Source: a virus. From it: a stretch of DNA of 21,554 bases. Numbering within the stretch: position 1 is the first letter of the stretch; every line of letters begins with the position of its first letter. Both the position numbers and the translations under genes were made by a program. Shown in pieces: positions 3,202 through 9,410 of this stretch. The DNA is taken from the IMG/VR virus record IMGVR_UViG_3300048006_000084, positions 1 to 21,554 of that record; one strand, written 5' to 3'. Under the pieces are notes generated by a model. The model made no database searches, had not been told where the DNA came from, and saw only the letters and a list, made by a program, of their open reading frames with translations.

Positions 3202-3350
3202 TGAGTAATAAAAAATTAAACTTTGCACATTGGAAAATTTCAATTGAATATAAATATGATGTCTTGCCTGAGTGGTATAAAAATGCTACTGATAAGCAAC
3301 GAGAAGTTATGTGGGTAAAATATCTTAACAACGAATATATAGGAGATTAA
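3201..3350 (+). CDS. Hypothetical protein, 49 aa
   Basis: It overlaps the previous stop by one base. The protein is basic and aromatic-rich (HWKISIEYKYDVLPEWYKN). No motif is recognised. It ends with AGGAGATTAA, which provides the ribosome-binding site for the next gene. Confidence 0.5.
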   Translation: MSNKKLNFAHWKISIEYKYDVLPEWYKNATDKQREVMWVKYLNNEYIGD

Positions 3351-3351
3351 A

Positions 3352-3600
3352 GTGAGTCATTTAAATAACGATGAGTTGCAACAAAATTTGTTTGAAGCAT
3401 CTGAGGATGAAAAGTTCCAGTACGTTGAACAACGAAAGTTAAAAATGATTGATGATATGTGGGAGCATCACTTTTATAACCTCCCAGTTATAGATTTAAT
3501 TATCCTTGCAAAACAACAGTTTAAGGACAAACACTGTTTAAACACTGCGGATGAAATTGTAGATAAGTATAATGAAATTTTTCAAAAAGGGGAAAAATAA
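3352..3600 (+). CDS. Hypothetical protein, 82 aa, GTG start
   Basis: The start is GTG at 3352, supported by AGGAG nine bases before it; no ATG lies near. The product is acidic and mainly helical in character, with a hydrophobic patch VIDLIILAKQ near residue 46. A GTTTAAAC site at 3536 encodes part of CLNT. The stop overlaps the next ATG. No family is recognised. Confidence 0.58.
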   Translation: MSHLNNDELQQNLFEASEDEKFQYVEQRKLKMIDDMWEHHFYNLPVIDLIILAKQQFKDKHCLNTADEIVDKYNEIFQKGEK

Positions 3601-3755
3601 TGAGGTGTAGAATTTGTGACGTTAGGTTAAAAGATAACGATTTATTCCGAAAAGATCATAGGGGAAAATATATAGATACTTGTAATGATTGTTCAAGTTC
3701 AATTTATAAAACATTACGAGAGTTTGATTTACCCGAAATTAAAGATAAAAAGTGA
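3600..3755 (+). CDS. Small zinc-ribbon protein, 51 aa
   Basis: Two CxxC pairs (C3-C6 in CRIC and C32-C35 in CNDC) are spaced as in a small zinc ribbon. Between them lies a basic linker (FRKDHRGKY). It is probably a nucleic-acid- or protein-binding regulator, but the target is not known. It is the last gene before the 3756-3896 regulatory region. Confidence 0.62.
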   Translation: MRCRICDVRLKDNDLFRKDHRGKYIDTCNDCSSSIYKTLREFDLPEIKDKK

Positions 3756-3759
3756 TAGT

Positions 3760-3775
3760 GTGACATATTTGTCAC
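3760..3775. promoter_or_regulatory. Inverted repeat GTGACA-N4-TGTCAC
   Basis: This perfect 6-bp inverted repeat with a 4-bp spacer abuts the -35 hexamer at 3776. It is a likely operator for an activator or repressor. The half-site spacing does not fit CRP. Confidence 0.6.
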
Positions 3776-3804
3776 TTGACACGCTATTTGTTATCCTATA
3801 GGAT
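3776..3804 (+). promoter_or_regulatory. Sigma70-type promoter
   Basis: A perfect -35 (TTGACA, 3776-3781) is followed, after a 17-nt spacer, by TAGGAT (3799-3804, four of six matches to TATAAT). It lies in the largest plus-strand gap without a gene (3756-3896) and would drive the genes from 3897 on. Confidence 0.65.
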
Positions 3805-3805
3805 A
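3792..3805. promoter_or_regulatory. 14-bp perfect palindrome over the -10 region
   Basis: TATCCTATAGGATA reads the same on both strands and covers the -10 element of the promoter at 3776-3804. A dimeric repressor bound here would block RNA polymerase. The function is inferred from position. Confidence 0.6.
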
Positions 3806-3861
3806 CTTATGTGGTCTGAAATTATACTTTAAGTTTTATTTTTAGTTATTAATTTAGATCA

Positions 3862-3886
3862 CTTAAGATACTTAAGAATACTTAAG
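3862..3886. repeat. Three phased CTTAAG palindromes
   Basis: CTTAAG occurs at 3862, 3871 and 3881, about one helical turn apart, in the pattern ATACTTAAGA. They sit in the leader just before the ATG at 3897 and downstream of the promoter. They could be a cooperative protein-binding array or overlap the translation start region. Confidence 0.6.
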
Positions 3887-3896
3887 AAGGTGTAAA

Positions 3897-4064
3897 ATGG
3901 TTAGAAAAAATAGTAAGAAATATAAACCGAAAAAACTAAGGAACCCTGAAAAGTTTCTTATGGATAGATATTATCATCCTAAAGTTTTTAGGTCTAAAAG
4001 GGTTGGTCTCAAAGCGAGAGATGCCGATCAACAAGTAAAAGATTTTTATGAAGGGGAGATGTAA
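3897..4064 (+). CDS. Small very basic protein, 55 aa
   Basis: It is the first gene of the transcript expected from the 3776 promoter. The ATG follows AAGAAGGTGTAAA. The N-terminal 16 residues are almost all Lys/Arg/Asn, with further basic patches (FRSKRVGLKAR). It could bind nucleic acid. No family is recognised. Confidence 0.58.
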   Translation: MVRKNSKKYKPKKLRNPEKFLMDRYYHPKVFRSKRVGLKARDADQQVKDFYEGEM

Positions 4065-4065
4065 C

Positions 4066-4107
4066 ATGGAATATTTACTTCTGATGCTACTTAAGTTCTT
4101 AATATGA
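4066..4107 (+). CDS. Possible 13-aa leader peptide
   Basis: A very short ORF (MEYLLLMLLKFLI) is preceded by GGGGAG, and its TGA overlaps the next gene's ATG. It may exist to couple translation or as a tiny membrane peptide; it may also be chance. Confidence 0.3.
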   Translation: MEYLLLMLLKFLI

Positions 4108-4253
4108 ACTGTTGGCGCTGTGAAACTAAGTTAATTTGGGGCGGTGATCATGATATGGATGATGGGTTATATGTTATGGTTACTAACTTGACTTGTCCTA
4201 ACTGTGAGAGTATAGTAGATGTCTACTATCCAAAGGAGAAAGAAGATGAGTAG
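4104..4253 (+). CDS. Small zinc-ribbon protein, 49 aa
   Basis: CWRC (C3-C6) and CPNC (C34-C37) form a two-knuckle zinc ribbon, with an acidic loop between (GGDHDMDDG) and an acidic tail. Proteins of this pattern are frequent in marine phages, without known function. Its stop region overlaps the next start (ATGAGTAG). Confidence 0.65.
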   Translation: MNCWRCETKLIWGGDHDMDDGLYVMVTNLTCPNCESIVDVYYPKEKEDE

Positions 4254-4392
4254 TACAGATAAGAAAATACTAAAACGATCAGAGCTAGAAGATTTAATTC
4301 AAAAGTTTGTAACTGAACATAATTTAGACGCTCAATGGGGTAAAGAATACGAGGGTGTTTGTAGTATTAATTTTTCAGTTGATGATGAATGA
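4246..4392 (+). CDS. Hypothetical protein, 48 aa
   Basis: It overlaps the previous gene by 8 nt and has AAAGGAG upstream as the ribosome-binding site. The product has a basic N-terminal helix and an acidic end (FSVDDE). It is unrecognised. Confidence 0.5.
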   Translation: MSSTDKKILKRSELEDLIQKFVTEHNLDAQWGKEYEGVCSINFSVDDE

Positions 4393-4550
4393 CAAGTTGG
4401 TTATATCCTAGTAACACGAAAAATGTTGAGACAATTAAAAAAGTCTTACCACATCTTAAGTGTTGGAATAAACCGTTAGATAAAAATATCTTGACGTACG
4501 AAAATAATTATTGTATCAAGGATAAGAAAATTTTAGATGTAAAGGTATAA
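4389..4550 (+). CDS. Hypothetical basic protein, 53 aa
   Basis: ATGA overlap with the previous stop implies coupled translation. The protein is lysine-rich, with two cysteines. No motif is recognised. Confidence 0.5.
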   Translation: MTSWLYPSNTKNVETIKKVLPHLKCWNKPLDKNILTYENNYCIKDKKILDVKV

Positions 4551-4554
4551 TTCA

Positions 4555-4761
4555 ATGTATGTAAATTTATATGACTACGCACCCAGAATAGGCTCAGGTT
4601 GGAGAAGAGTTGAGTTAGTTTCTGAGGGTTGGAAGTGGACCAAAATAAAATACCGTCCAATGGGTTTAAACGGCTCCCCTATATTCGAGCGTCCTATACA
4701 CAGCAAGATACTTTCTAAAGTGTGGGAAAAGTTGCCTAAGAAAGAAAGGTTATTCTCATGA
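4555..4761 (+). CDS. Hypothetical basic protein, 68 aa
   Basis: It begins 4 nt after the previous stop, with AAAGG ahead of the start. It is rich in Trp and Lys/Arg (GSGWRRVELVSEGWKWTKIKY region, residues 13-33). A GTTTAAAC site at 4664 encodes GLNG. It overlaps the next gene by 4 nt. Confidence 0.55.
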   Translation: MYVNLYDYAPRIGSGWRRVELVSEGWKWTKIKYRPMGLNGSPIFERPIHSKILSKVWEKLPKKERLFS

Positions 4762-4979
4762 TCGTACCTTGGGAAAAAAATGAACAAAAAGTGTATATTG
4801 TGTTTGAGCATGATAGCTATGATTATTGTGGGGTTAAAGGTGTATTTGACAGCAGAGCTATAGCTAACGAAGCTAGAGATATTTATACGAAAAACGAAGC
4901 CGAAGAAGGGATGTTCTATTCGTATTTCGTAAAAGAATTTGATGTAGAAAAAAGAGTTTATAGTCATTTTAATTCTTGA
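4758..4979 (+). CDS. DUF7336-like small protein, 73 aa
   Basis: Residues 11-55 (VYIVFEHDSYDYCGVKGVFDS, then a helix with AIANEA) resemble a small domain seen in many phage and bacterial proteins in which a beta-hairpin is followed by a helix. The DUF7336 name is from memory and unverified. The stop codon overlaps the -35 of the next promoter. Confidence 0.58.
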   Translation: MIVPWEKNEQKVYIVFEHDSYDYCGVKGVFDSRAIANEARDIYTKNEAEEGMFYSYFVKEFDVEKRVYSHFNS

Positions 4980-5004
4980 CATAAGTTTTTACATCAAGTA
5001 AACT
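4976..5004 (+). promoter_or_regulatory. Sigma70-type promoter of the replication module
   Basis: A perfect TTGACA (4976-4981), a 17-nt spacer and TAAACT (4999-5004, four of six matches) precede the ssDNA-binding protein gene by about 40 nt. It likely starts a strong transcript for SSB and the replication genes. Confidence 0.65.
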
Positions 5005-5045
5005 GAGGTAGTAAGTTAAATTTTAATTAGTATGGAGAATACGAT

Positions 5046-5426
5046 ATGATTACAGAAGGTGTAGTAGCGTTTAGCAATTTAGCTGAGACAGAGAAGTACA
5101 ACGGTCAAGACACAGGTAAGTTTTCCATTGTGTTGACTTTAGAAGAGCAGGAAGCAGAGAAGCTTTCGGATGCTGGTGTCAACGTCAAAGAGTACAAGAA
5201 CCAGCCACAGCGTAAGTTTGTGACTAAGTTTCCAGACTTTCCAGTAATGGATTCGGAAGGCGACACAATCGCTAAACATATCCCCTACGGTTCCAAGGTG
5301 CGTGTCCTTTGGGAACCGGGCAAACCCCACCCTACTCACGGGGTAGCTCCCTATTTCAAGAAGATTAAAGTTCTTGAGATGGCACAACACGAAGGAACTA
5401 TGTCAGAAGGTGACGAAGAGTTCTAA
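5046..5426 (+). CDS. Single-stranded DNA-binding protein, T7 gp2.5-like
   Basis: At 126 residues it is shorter than T7 gp2.5 (232) but has the arrangement of the small marine-phage SSB versions: a beta-rich OB-like body (residues 1-110) and an acidic tail ending in aromatic Phe (EGDEEF). In gp2.5 such a tail contacts the polymerase and helicase; the primase-helicase here also ends in acidic residues plus Phe (DHEF). The product would coat ssDNA at the fork and help annealing. A strong promoter lies upstream, and the gene is followed by a GC-rich hairpin at 5433-5456. Codon use is more GC-rich than in the small genes before it, consistent with high expression. Confidence 0.75.
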   Translation: MITEGVVAFSNLAETEKYNGQDTGKFSIVLTLEEQEAEKLSDAGVNVKEYKNQPQRKFVTKFPDFPVMDSEGDTIAKHIPYGSKVRVLWEPGKPHPTHGVAPYFKKIKVLEMAQHEGTMSEGDEEF

Positions 5427-5742: not shown

Positions 5743-7395
5743 GTGTTACAAAAAGTTTCTAAGGTTACAGGTAAAGGCCCTTGTCCTAAGTGTCGAGAGA
5801 AGGGTAACGATACTAAAGGGGATAACTTAGTTTCTTACGATGATGGGCATAAGTATTGTTATGCCTGTACATATACAGAGTTCTCAGATGGTTCCCCTAA
5901 CACAGAACCTTATGTAGTTAAACCAACGAAGGATTTTGAGATGGTAGGTTTTCACGGAGCGATTAAGGACAGACGTATTTCAGATACGATTGTTAAAAAG
6001 TTCGGAGTTACAGTAGAGAGAAACGAAGTAGACAATACACTATCAAAACATCACTACCCATATTTTGATAAAGATACAGGAAATGCGGTAGGTACTAAGG
6101 TCAGGTCAGTTCGTCAGAAAACCTTTTTAACTACAGGTACTCTGGACAACACTGGTTTATTCGGGCAACAGATATGGCGCGAAGGTGGTAAGTACGTCAC
6201 TATCACAGAAGGCGAGTTAGATGCTTTAGCTGTGGCAGAGATGTTTGACGGTAAATGGCCTTGCGTTTCAATTAAGACGGGATCAGCAGGGGCAGTCAAG
6301 GACATTAAAGCGTCTTTAGAGTGGTTAGAGACCTTTGAGAATGTAGTGATATGCTTTGATATGGATGACGCAGGTAAACAAGCAGTGGACAGTATACTTC
6401 CATTGTTCTCCCACGATAAGGCTAAAGTAGTATCTCTTCCGCTTAAGGACGCAGGGGAGATGCTTAAGGCAGGAAAGGTAAAAGAATTTATTTCCGCATG
6501 GTGGGACGCTAAACCCTATAGACCAGTAGGAGTAGTTTCGTTCGGTGATGAGGAGTGTTGGGATGCGTTTGTTAAACGTGGTACTGAGGAGATTATACCT
6601 CTACCTGATGCTTATGGCTCACTTAATGCCATGATGAATGGTGGTCTAGCGGCCGGAGAAGTAACTGTCATAGGTGCATTGACATCCATAGGTAAGACTA
6701 CAATGGTCTTTAATTTACTTTACGACATGGTACTACAGAACTCTAAAAAGATTGGTGCTGTATTACTGGAATCAGACCTAGGCGAGACTATAGAAAAGAT
6801 AGTTTCCCTACATAGTGGCGAGAATATATCTTTAGTTCCTAATGAGACTAGAGACAATTCAGTGTACCGTGATTTTTACGATGACTTTAAAAGTAAATCT
6901 AATGTGCATATTTTAAAGCACCTAGGTTTTTCGGATGTAGATGCCCTGTTCTCTAAGATGCGGTGGATGGCTGTGGGTGATGACTGTGACGTTATTATCT
7001 TAGACCCTCTCCATGCGGCTGTGAGGTCAAATGAGAACGGGCAGATAGATGAGTTTATGGATAGGTGTCTTAAGTTAGCTAAGGAGACAGGTGTATCTAT
7101 TGTTATTGTGTCACACATGAGGAAGCCTAACGTCAAAGACCCACATGATGTCAACGAGTACGACATGAAGGGGTCGGGATCGATCAATCAGATAGCCTTC
7201 AACACGATCTTACTAAGCCGTGACAAGATGTCTGATGATGAGTACACTAGGAACTCAACTAAAGTACAGCTAGTGAAGTGTCGTAGGACAGGCCGTACTG
7301 GTCATGCTGGTTGGTTGTACTATGAGCAGGACACAGGACGTATGGTGGCAGGTACAGAACCTAAGATAAAGGCGGTAGAAGATCATGAGTTCTAA
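5743..7395 (+). CDS. Primase-helicase, T7 gp4-like
   Basis: The 550-residue length is close to T7 gp4 (566). Visible domains: a zinc finger (CPKC 14-17, CYAC 39-42) for template recognition; a TOPRIM primase core (EGELDA 156-161, DMDD 206-209); and a RecA-type hexameric helicase with Walker A GALTSIGKT (311-319), Walker B VIILD (417-421) and the phosphate-sensor region VSHMRKP (456-462). The C-terminus ends acidic plus Phe (EDHEF), as needed for polymerase docking in T7. It unwinds DNA and lays primers for the lagging strand. The start is GTG, 1 nt after the previous stop, with AAGGGG upstream. Its 3' end overlaps the HNH gene by 11 nt. Confidence 0.93.
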   Translation: MLQKVSKVTGKGPCPKCREKGNDTKGDNLVSYDDGHKYCYACTYTEFSDGSPNTEPYVVKPTKDFEMVGFHGAIKDRRISDTIVKKFGVTVERNEVDNTLSKHHYPYFDKDTGNAVGTKVRSVRQKTFLTTGTLDNTGLFGQQIWREGGKYVTITEGELDALAVAEMFDGKWPCVSIKTGSAGAVKDIKASLEWLETFENVVICFDMDDAGKQAVDSILPLFSHDKAKVVSLPLKDAGEMLKAGKVKEFISAWWDAKPYRPVGVVSFGDEECWDAFVKRGTEEIIPLPDAYGSLNAMMNGGLAAGEVTVIGALTSIGKTTMVFNLLYDMVLQNSKKIGAVLLESDLGETIEKIVSLHSGENISLVPNETRDNSVYRDFYDDFKSKSNVHILKHLGFSDVDALFSKMRWMAVGDDCDVIILDPLHAAVRSNENGQIDEFMDRCLKLAKETGVSIVIVSHMRKPNVKDPHDVNEYDMKGSGSINQIAFNTILLSRDKMSDDEYTRNSTKVQLVKCRRTGRTGHAGWLYYEQDTGRMVAGTEPKIKAVEDHEF

Positions 7396-7804
7396 ATACC
7401 AAATACGACACGATATGTCAGGGCGTTTAAACAGGTCAGTTTATTTACGTAAAAGAAATAACTACTCTTGTGAAGTTTGTCTTGAGAATTACCCTGAAGA
7501 AGTTTTAGAGTTTCATCACCCTGATTCTTCTTTAAAAGAAACACAGTTAAGTAGTCATTCTTTTAGAGGTGTGTTACAGCCGAAGCAGAAAGTTCTTGAC
7601 GAGGCTGATGATTGTATAGTATTATGTAGTAACTGTCATAGACTTGAACATATAGCTTTAAAAAAAGGTGAGACTTTAATCAATGACAAAGAAGCTTATT
7701 CTAGATATAGAAACCACCGCTTTTCCAGTTACAAAGGTTTGGATGATCGGGACAAAGGACCTACAGACGAAGAAGAAGAAGAATTTCCTTGTGGACCAGT
7801 TTAG
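7385..7804 (+). CDS. HNH endonuclease
   Basis: This 139-residue protein has a zinc-bound HNH core: CEVC (29-32), EFHH (42-45) and CSNCHRLEH (81-89), giving paired cysteines C29/C32 and C81/C84 and the H44/H45-N83-H89 series. It should nick or cut DNA. Such genes between replication genes can be free-standing homing nucleases or host-DNA degradation enzymes; which applies here cannot be told. The last 122 bp lie in another frame inside the polymerase gene, so about 40 C-terminal residues (ending in an EEEEE run and PCGPV) are overprinted on the exonuclease domain. A GTTTAAAC site at 7425 encodes RLN. Confidence 0.82.
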   Translation: MSSKYQIRHDMSGRLNRSVYLRKRNNYSCEVCLENYPEEVLEFHHPDSSLKETQLSSHSFRGVLQPKQKVLDEADDCIVLCSNCHRLEHIALKKGETLINDKEAYSRYRNHRFSSYKGLDDRDKGPTDEEEEEFPCGPV

Positions 7805-9410
7805 CGAACTACAGGATTTTATAGATAGATATGATGTCATTATTGGTCATAATATTATTGATTTTGATATTCCTATTCTGGAAAGATTTCTAAAGACATC
7901 GTTTAAACAGCACAAGATTGTAGATACGTTAATTCTTTCCCGTCTGTTTAATCCTCAGTTAGAAGACGGACATTCGTTAAGGGCATGGGGAGAGCGTCTT
8001 AAGTTTCCTAAAGGTGATTATGATGATTGGACTAAGATAACACCTGAGATGATAGAGTATTGTGAGCAGGATTGTGACGTTACACATAAGGTCTACGAGG
8101 TACTTACTGAAAAGCTAGATACCTTTGGTGATACCAGTATTGAGCTAGAACATGAAGTTCAGAATGTAATTACTAAGCAGATACAACACGGGTGGTTATT
8201 AGATCAACGTAAATGTTACGATCTATTAGCTGAACTTAAACAACGAAAGATGGAGATTGAAGATGAAGTACACGAAAGGTTTAAAGCGTTACCTGTTTTT
8301 GTTAAAGAGATCACGCCTAAGTACAACAAAGACGGTAGACTTAGCAACGTTGGTCTTAGGTTTTTCGGTGATAACAGGCCTTGTATTGGGGGTTCTTTTA
8401 GTCGCATAGATTGGCCTGAGTTTAACTTAGGTTCTAGACAACAGATCGGGAGATACTTACAGTTTTTCGGATGGGTCCCTAAGCAACATACTGAGAAGGG
8501 TAACGTAATTGTGGATGAAGCAGTCCTTAGTAAAGTCAAGAATATACCAGAAGCTTCGCTAATAGCTGAGTATTTATTAGTTCAAAAGCGTATGGCACAG
8601 ATAGATTCATGGCTAGAAGGAGTAGAGGAGGACGGTAGAGTTCATGGTTACGTTAATCCTATAGGTGCTGTAACGGGACGTATGACCCACAGCAGTCCTA
8701 ATATGGCTCAGGTTCCGGCTAGTTACTCACCTTATGGTGGTGAATGTAGAAGTTGCTGGATAACACCTAAAGGTTATAAGCTTGTAGGTGTAGATGCTTC
8801 AGGGCTAGAGCTACGTATGTTAGCTCATTACATGAATGATGCAGACTACACCAATGAAGTAATACATGGTGATATACATACAGCTAATATGAAAGCGGCT
8901 GGTCTTACAGACCGCGATCAGGCGAAGACATTTATCTATGCTTTCCTATATGGTGCTGGTGACGTTAAGTGCGGTAGCATCGTAGGCGGTTCTAAGAAGG
9001 AAGGTGCTAGGCTTAAGGAGAAGTTCTTATCAAATACCCCTGCCTTACGACAGCTTAGAGAGAAGGTAGAGCTTAGTTCGCAGAGAGGTTATCTCAAAGG
9101 TATTGACGGTAGGAAATTAATTATACGATCTACACACGCTAGTTTAAACACTCTCTTACAATCTGCTGGTGCAGTTATTATGAAGAAAGCCTTGACATTG
9201 TTAGATCAATATGCGATACTACATAATATAGACTATAAATTTGTAGGTAACATTCACGATGAATTTCAAGCTGAAGTTCGGGAAGACCAAGTAGATAATT
9301 TTGGATGGTTGGCTGTAGAGTGTATTAAGTCAGCAGGTCTAAAGTTTAACTTAAGATGCCCCTTAGATGGTGAATATAAAACAGGCAATAATTGGGCTGA
9401 GACCCACTAG
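7683..9410 (+). CDS. DNA polymerase, family A, T7 gp5-like
   Basis: The 575-residue enzyme has a 3'-5' exonuclease domain: DIET (8-11), HNIIDFD (56-62) and Exo III around YCEQD (126-130). The polymerase domain has motif A VDASGLELR (370-378, Asp371), motif B RDQAKTFIYAFLYG (411-424) and motif C HDE (525-527). It ends in GNNWAETH, like T7 gp5. It is about 130 residues shorter than T7 polymerase (704), and I see no segment clearly matching the thioredoxin-binding loop. The residue equivalent to E. coli Phe762 is Tyr419, the T7 state, which has been linked with virulent life style in marine phages. The start at 7683 is fixed by the DIET motif. Confidence 0.95.
   Translation: MTKKLILDIETTAFPVTKVWMIGTKDLQTKKKKNFLVDQFSELQDFIDRYDVIIGHNIIDFDIPILERFLKTSFKQHKIVDTLILSRLFNPQLEDGHSLRAWGERLKFPKGDYDDWTKITPEMIEYCEQDCDVTHKVYEVLTEKLDTFGDTSIELEHEVQNVITKQIQHGWLLDQRKCYDLLAELKQRKMEIEDEVHERFKALPVFVKEITPKYNKDGRLSNVGLRFFGDNRPCIGGSFSRIDWPEFNLGSRQQIGRYLQFFGWVPKQHTEKGNVIVDEAVLSKVKNIPEASLIAEYLLVQKRMAQIDSWLEGVEEDGRVHGYVNPIGAVTGRMTHSSPNMAQVPASYSPYGGECRSCWITPKGYKLVGVDASGLELRMLAHYMNDADYTNEVIHGDIHTANMKAAGLTDRDQAKTFIYAFLYGAGDVKCGSIVGGSKKEGARLKEKFLSNTPALRQLREKVELSSQRGYLKGIDGRKLIIRSTHASLNTLLQSAGAVIMKKALTLLDQYAILHNIDYKFVGNIHDEFQAEVREDQVDNFGWLAVECIKSAGLKFNLRCPLDGEYKTGNNWAETH

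Follow-up and report, generated by a model that had tools for sequence, protein, structure and literature searches.

In phage operator switches of the lambda type, symmetric DNA sites are arranged around a promoter. Other phage leaders work as RNA: that of T7 gene 10 is an mRNA stabiliser of the 5′-terminal stem-loop type, and the put-type antiterminator of HK022 is a leader RNA that modifies RNA polymerase. In the available text of PMC3997798, RppH and RNase E require single-stranded 5′ ends, and structure at the 5′ end makes messages more stable; stabilisers of the ompA and papA type follow this principle, with a stem-loop at, or a few nucleotides from, the 5′ end and an open ribosome-binding site after it. 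Dense TTAA repeats near phage promoters are described, in the available text of PMC9437464, as arrays of CtrA boxes in phages of Alphaproteobacteria, where the site is TTAA-N7-TTAA.

Here we describe a locus in a 21.5-kb virus record (IMGVR_UViG_3300048006_000084; the whole stretch of DNA that was analysed, hereafter the window) that, judged by its sequence, is a conserved promoter joined to a co-varying 5′ leader. The leader resembles the ompA and papA stabilisers in having a predicted stem at or a few nucleotides from its 5′ end and, past it, a ribosome-binding site predicted to be open. It differs from them in that its stem has no fixed sequence, with paired changes across the phage group, overlaps the promoter start and has its 3′ arm in or beside tandem CTTAAG boxes. 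As in CtrA-box arrays, TTAA repeats are dense near the promoter, but in the 23 leaders compared the CTTAAG boxes lie mostly at 10-nt steps, so that N6 spacing predominates (TTAA-N6-TTAA 20 times, N7 once), and the arms co-vary; a CtrA-box array was rejected for this wrong spacing. As in a lambda-type switch, symmetric sites stand around the promoter, but those at the −35 and −10 are not conserved; no divergent repressor gene was found in the window region. The candidate RNA element is of a known general kind, and the titles and abstract openings of the literature searched (on CTTAAG phage promoters, terminal stem-loops, structured RNAs of marine phages, put/HK022 and pelagiphage promoters) hold no description of it.

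Promoter, boxes and palindromes in a gene-free gap

The window has a G+C content of 37%. On its + strand, a block of small genes is followed by genes for a single-strand binding/annealing-like protein, a primase-helicase, a DNA polymerase and a ribonucleotide reductase, beyond which large genes lie on the − strand. Megablast of the window against 50,697 phage records returned no match. The nearest named relatives of its DNA polymerase are those of the Pelagibacter phages HTVC104P, HTVC103P and HTVC115P (51–52% identity, 52% for HTVC104P), and the adjoining helicase (5743–9410 for both) is about 35% identical to the best named match among those listed, a contrast that suggests mosaicism. The close relatives of the window are IMG/VR contigs. 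Among named phages, the examined parts of HTVC115P and Slicky01 gave no match and HTVC103P gave one at chance level (E 4.6); a helicase scan of genome contigs for a link to a host found no relative.

The features in and around the 141-bp gap at 3756–3896 are as follows.

3600–3755, + strand: gene for a small CxxC protein of 51 aa, upstream of the gap; a conserved neighbour by inspection, with a weak GATA-like Pfam match below the cut-off
3776–3781, + strand: −35 hexamer TTGACA, invariant across 16 aligned leaders
3799–3804, + strand: −10 hexamer TAGGAT after a 17-nt spacer, TAGnAT-like in relatives
3806–3811, + strand: CTTATG at the predicted start, a variant CTTAAG box, from the alignment of relatives
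3811–3820, + strand: 5′ arm of the predicted terminal hairpin, GTGGTCTGAA, from folds and covariation
3853–3862, + strand: 3′ arm of the predicted terminal hairpin, TTTAGATCAC, with two G.U pairs, from folds and covariation
3862–3886, + strand: three CTTAAG boxes, of which the last two can pair as a 6-bp hairpin with a 4-nt loop
3886–3892, + strand: putative ribosome-binding site GAAGGTG before the ATG at 3897, from sequence; predicted to be mostly open
3897–4064, + strand: gene for a small basic protein of 55 aa, the first past the leader; its family has no Pfam or PHROG match

An earlier note had described the gap as free of genes, which it is, and as a compact control region; the latter view, with a σ70-type promoter, is supported by the presence of TTGACA-N17-TAnnnT at the same place in most relatives. 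The predicted +1, set 7 nt past the −10, falls at about 3811. When positions 3300–5100 were compared with the relative loci by blastn, the promoter–leader stretch was matched even where its surroundings had diverged. The layout common to the relatives comprises TTGACA-N17-TAGnAT or similar, a CTTAAG-like box at the predicted start, about 40 variable nucleotides and, at the end of the leader, 1 to 9 CTTAAG/CTTAGG boxes followed by the ribosome-binding site. Such an element points to where promoter and transcript start probably lie in genomes that come without any expression data. At L027:1116–1194, the CTTAAG-like array has grown to nine boxes at steps of 9–10 nt, a sign of slippage. A second promoter-like site in the window, ahead of the gene at 5046, has by eye no such leader.

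A scan of 3756–3896 for an intrinsic terminator or attenuator (a G+C-rich hairpin with a T run) found none, and this reading of the gap was rejected. Elsewhere in the window, between the genes at 2078 and 2465, positions 2358–2390 hold a strong intrinsic-terminator-like hairpin (GGGGAGCG...CGTTCCCC) with a T-run.

The earlier note took the gap for a genetic switch with several operators, on account of three kinds of symmetric site, all of which are present: the inverted repeat GTGACA-N4-TGTCAC (GTGACATATTTGTCAC, 3760–3775), which touches the TTGACA at 3776–3781; the 14-bp perfect palindrome TATCCTATAGGATA (3792–3805), which covers the −10 TAGGAT; and three CTTAAG sites ahead of the next ATG, at 3862, 3871 and 3881. 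The window has one perfect palindrome of at least 14 bp against a mean of 1.87 in dinucleotide-preserving shuffles, and at least one falls within the 141 bp in 46 of 2,000 shuffles. Inverted repeats of 6 bp with gaps of 3–6 number 42 in the window (shuffled mean 32.3) and three in the 141 bp, where at least one occurs in 487 of 2,000 shuffles. The triple CTTAAG array arose in 0 of 200 shuffles of the window, and the triplet recurs in relatives as part of the larger leader element.

In L004, the nearest non-identical relative (two aligned pieces, 96.7 and 93.4% identical), the places of the two dyads read GTGACATATTTACCAC and TTTTCCATTAGGATA: both dyads are broken, and the promoter and CTTAAG array are kept. 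In the other loci covered by a search for the exact patterns (the dyad with its adjoining −35, and the 14-bp palindrome), these occurred only in copies of the window sequence. On the strength of both shuffling and conservation, the sites are thus real as sequence, yet only the promoter and the CTTAAG part are notable; the GTGACA dyad and TATCCTATAGGATA look like chance, and their reading as operators was rejected for want of conservation in relatives. Non-conservation of the symmetric sites is what the earlier note had itself named as evidence against its proposal, and it is what we find for the −35 and −10 dyads, since neither is conserved even in L004 and both are absent from the other loci searched. 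A switch with several operators is therefore not supported, the CTTAAG boxes being better explained as arms of, and elements beside, a co-varying hairpin at the predicted transcript start. Eye-catching palindromes can be chance while an adjoining symmetry is what is conserved.

Co-variation and folding of the predicted terminal hairpin

Related uncultured marine phages have an inverted repeat whose 5′ arm sits at the predicted start; the 3′ arm follows some 40 nt later, among the 1 to 9 CTTAAG-like boxes directly before the ribosome-binding site. Past the first box, the 5′ arm is the reverse complement of a stretch that ends in a 3′ box, and the predicted hairpin is 10 bp long in the window and 16 bp in L056. 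The sequence of the arm varies by group and its partner follows, with GTGGTCTTAAG facing CTTAAGACCAC in L056, GTAGTCATAAGGA facing TCCTTATGACTAC in L088, GTATCCTAAGGAG facing CTCCTTAGGATAC in L046 and ACCTAAGCAGT facing ACTGCTTAGGT in L026.

In a 12-sequence alignment of the 16-bp stem, 90.1% of cells are paired, against 24–56% in slid registers of the same alignment, and two-sided changes that still pair account for 14 cells, compared with a shuffled mean of 4.5 (0 of 500). RNAalifold, given no structure, returned the same helix, starting at the predicted +1 column. Arms were also swapped among leaders, using the transcribed parts only and 14 representatives of 15 clusters (L020 was left out, its promoter register being unsure): cognate arms average −17.7 kcal/mol against −10.4 kcal/mol when the partners are permuted (sd 0.96, 0 of 20,000), and for 10 of the 14 the cognate arm is the best partner. 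Pairing is poor in L007, with a cognate rank of 10 of 14, and in L028. Between the window and L004, 9 of 144 positions differ, seven of them upstream of the predicted start; the other two, the sole differences among the 89 positions from +1 to the ATG, compensate each other as one base pair (U-A to C-G), position 3858 being A in the window and G in L004, with a compensating T to C change in the 5′ arm. Covariation, RNAalifold and the arm swap make it likely that selection keeps the arms paired, neutral correction of the repeat being improbable.

Folded alone, the window leader is little better than its own shuffles (z −1.64, with 12 of 200 shuffles as good; −1.98 in a second analysis), so that the case for the hairpin rests on comparison. 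The analyses of fold, repeat extent, box spacing and strand used 23 leaders from 29 places, after removal of two duplicates and of L030, L017, L016 and L028, which are without the 17-nt TTGAC promoter. A 5′-terminal stem was defined by a base paired within the first three nucleotides, with 10 or more of the first 16 nt in the stem. Folding from the predicted +1 gave such a stem, starting no more than about 3 nt from the predicted 5′ end, in 19 of the 23 leaders against 4.8 expected (mean z −3.1), where leaders found through the covariance model or the inverted-repeat pattern are selected for the stem and those found by blastn are not. In the predicted ensemble, the first five nucleotides are buried in 13 of 19 leaders (unpaired probability of at most 0.16), and the start region is mostly open; in 17 of 19 it is more open when the 5′ arm is included than when it is omitted. 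The apical loop is no better structured than in shuffles (mean z −0.33, 6 of 12 negative). The preference for one strand is weak in an alignment scored without regard to G.U, where mismatches comprise GT (12), TG (2), AC (3) and CA (2), with many TT and AA.

Possible roles of the leader

From promoter-like sequence, conserved position, co-varying arms and predicted folding, we infer a transcription start and effects on RNA stability and translation. The leader probably forms a 5′-terminal RNA hairpin on a σ70-type transcript, with a buried 5′ end, an open ribosome-binding site after it and a stabilising effect on the message. A σ70-type polymerase would start at, or a few bases from, the base of the inverted repeat, and the first 10–16 nt of the RNA would pair with the segment about 40 nt downstream to give a hairpin at the extreme 5′ end. 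Its 3′ arm would lie in or beside the CTTAAG-like run that ends at the ribosome-binding site, the spare boxes pairing mutually. The paired 5′ end would resist RNases and pyrophosphohydrolases that require an unpaired one, the tied-up 5′ arm would keep the ribosome-binding site free of complementary boxes, and the outcome would be a longer-lived, well-translated message for the small genes downstream. Message protection is the simplest role because RppH and RNase E, in the available text of PMC3997798, act on single-stranded 5′ ends. If the leader does stabilise, it would offer a phage that depends on σ70 promoters a compact means of keeping its messages alive.

Co-variation of the arms outside the boxes (GTGGTC/GACCAC, GTAGTC/GACTAC, CCTAAGGAG/CTCCTTAGG) speaks against an explanation in DNA terms, whereby a phage or host protein would bind CTTAAG boxes spaced about one helical turn apart around and past the start, to repress or activate, and arm pairing would be a by-product of repeated palindromic boxes. 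So do the shrinkage of the array to a single box in L042-type leaders and the box at the predicted start: 5 of the 15 clusters have one or more members in which it is altered, which ill suits an essential operator there. We consider such operators rather unlikely, even with the 10-nt steps of the boxes (N6 in 20 cases), the same steps in the leaders of a divergent promoter in relatives, and a repeat that reaches upstream of the predicted start in their favour. The boxes may have a DNA role besides the hairpin, because the inverted repeat runs to about −5, the preference for one strand is weak and only suggestive (in 10 of 15 clusters the sense strand is the more stable, Stouffer −1.7) and the boxes keep their 10-nt steps.

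As to other readings of the leader, it is unlikely to be a tunable clamp, which would make it the first of a new class among phage leaders: a single 5′-terminal arm would grip any of several tandem 3′ copies beside the ribosome-binding site, copy number and register would set message life and translation, and evolution would proceed by gain and loss of repeats. An RNA switch is also unlikely: either competition among several 3′ copies for the 5′ arm or binding of the leader by a protein or small molecule would regulate access to the ribosome-binding site in infection. Many leaders do have several 3′ copies, the partner segment ACTTAAGACCACTTAAG of L056 occurs in two overlapping registers, and in 17 of 19 leaders folding without the first 20 nt lowers the predicted opening of the start region; yet copy number goes down to one in L042-type leaders, there is no conserved loop or ligand-like core, and the leader has no Rfam match at the gathering score, for which reason a known RNA family was also rejected. 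Template switching during replication can correct quasi-palindromes, and a repeat near the start that has no function and keeps its arms complementary in this way, without selection, would also show arms that change together and the slippage seen in tandem boxes (nine in L027), but it is very improbable given that diverged phages have the repeat at one and the same place by the predicted start, and that G.U and T.T mismatches, which such correction should also repair, persist in the stem of the window and L004 alike.

Distribution, neighbouring genes and other leaders

A covariance model search of 82 sources gave an upstream + strand match in 35 of 37 relatives (the weakest, L047, at E 0.28), the relatives counted being those with a helicase identity of at least 63% and at least 2.4 kb of upstream sequence; there are 39 of these, of which L003 (identical to the window) and L025 (like L024) were left out of the search, while nine of the 37 are seeds of the model and many of L046–L053 are near-identical. 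L036 had no match in the searched stretch, although the far end of its record has one, which a circular record would place about 3.8 kb upstream, and the match in L028 reached only E 0.48 and was not counted. In longer records, the main model match is mostly single at this place. An unannotated candidate RNA element supported by covariation is present in nearly all members of this group of uncultured marine phages that have enough upstream sequence.

The earlier note regarded the flanking zinc-ribbon and basic proteins as possible regulators; they are conserved neighbours of the leader, and a regulator role finds no support here. In L021 and L027 the first gene past the leader is unrelated to that of the small basic protein, an observation that speaks against a leader dedicated to autoregulation by this protein. 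The product of 3897–4064 founds a small basic family (RNPEK..MD.YY.PKVFRS) that is kept past the leader in relatives. It had no match in the phage collection, and its predicted structure is mostly helical, at low confidence (mean pLDDT 67.7).

On the opposite strand, relative loci carry a strong promoter (TTGACTTT...AATATGTTATAAT-like, with a 17-nt spacer), which in several of them lies 3–4 kb upstream of the leader:

L026:460, L042:1477, L041:1998, L037:1594, L016:197, L007:521, L091:2377, L072:838 and L074:267, − strand: opposite-strand promoter

This promoter lies beyond the reach of the window and stands before another leader, which is rich in hairpins and has CTTAAG-N4-CTTAAG pairs. In the more distant loci L057–L081 (about 60% helicase identity; for example, L070:5300–5560 and L062:4270–4530), long leaders with multiple hairpins and abundant CTTAAG, CTTTA and TAAAG occur ahead of the single-strand-binding gene and on the opposite strand, with the main stem away from the 5′ end.
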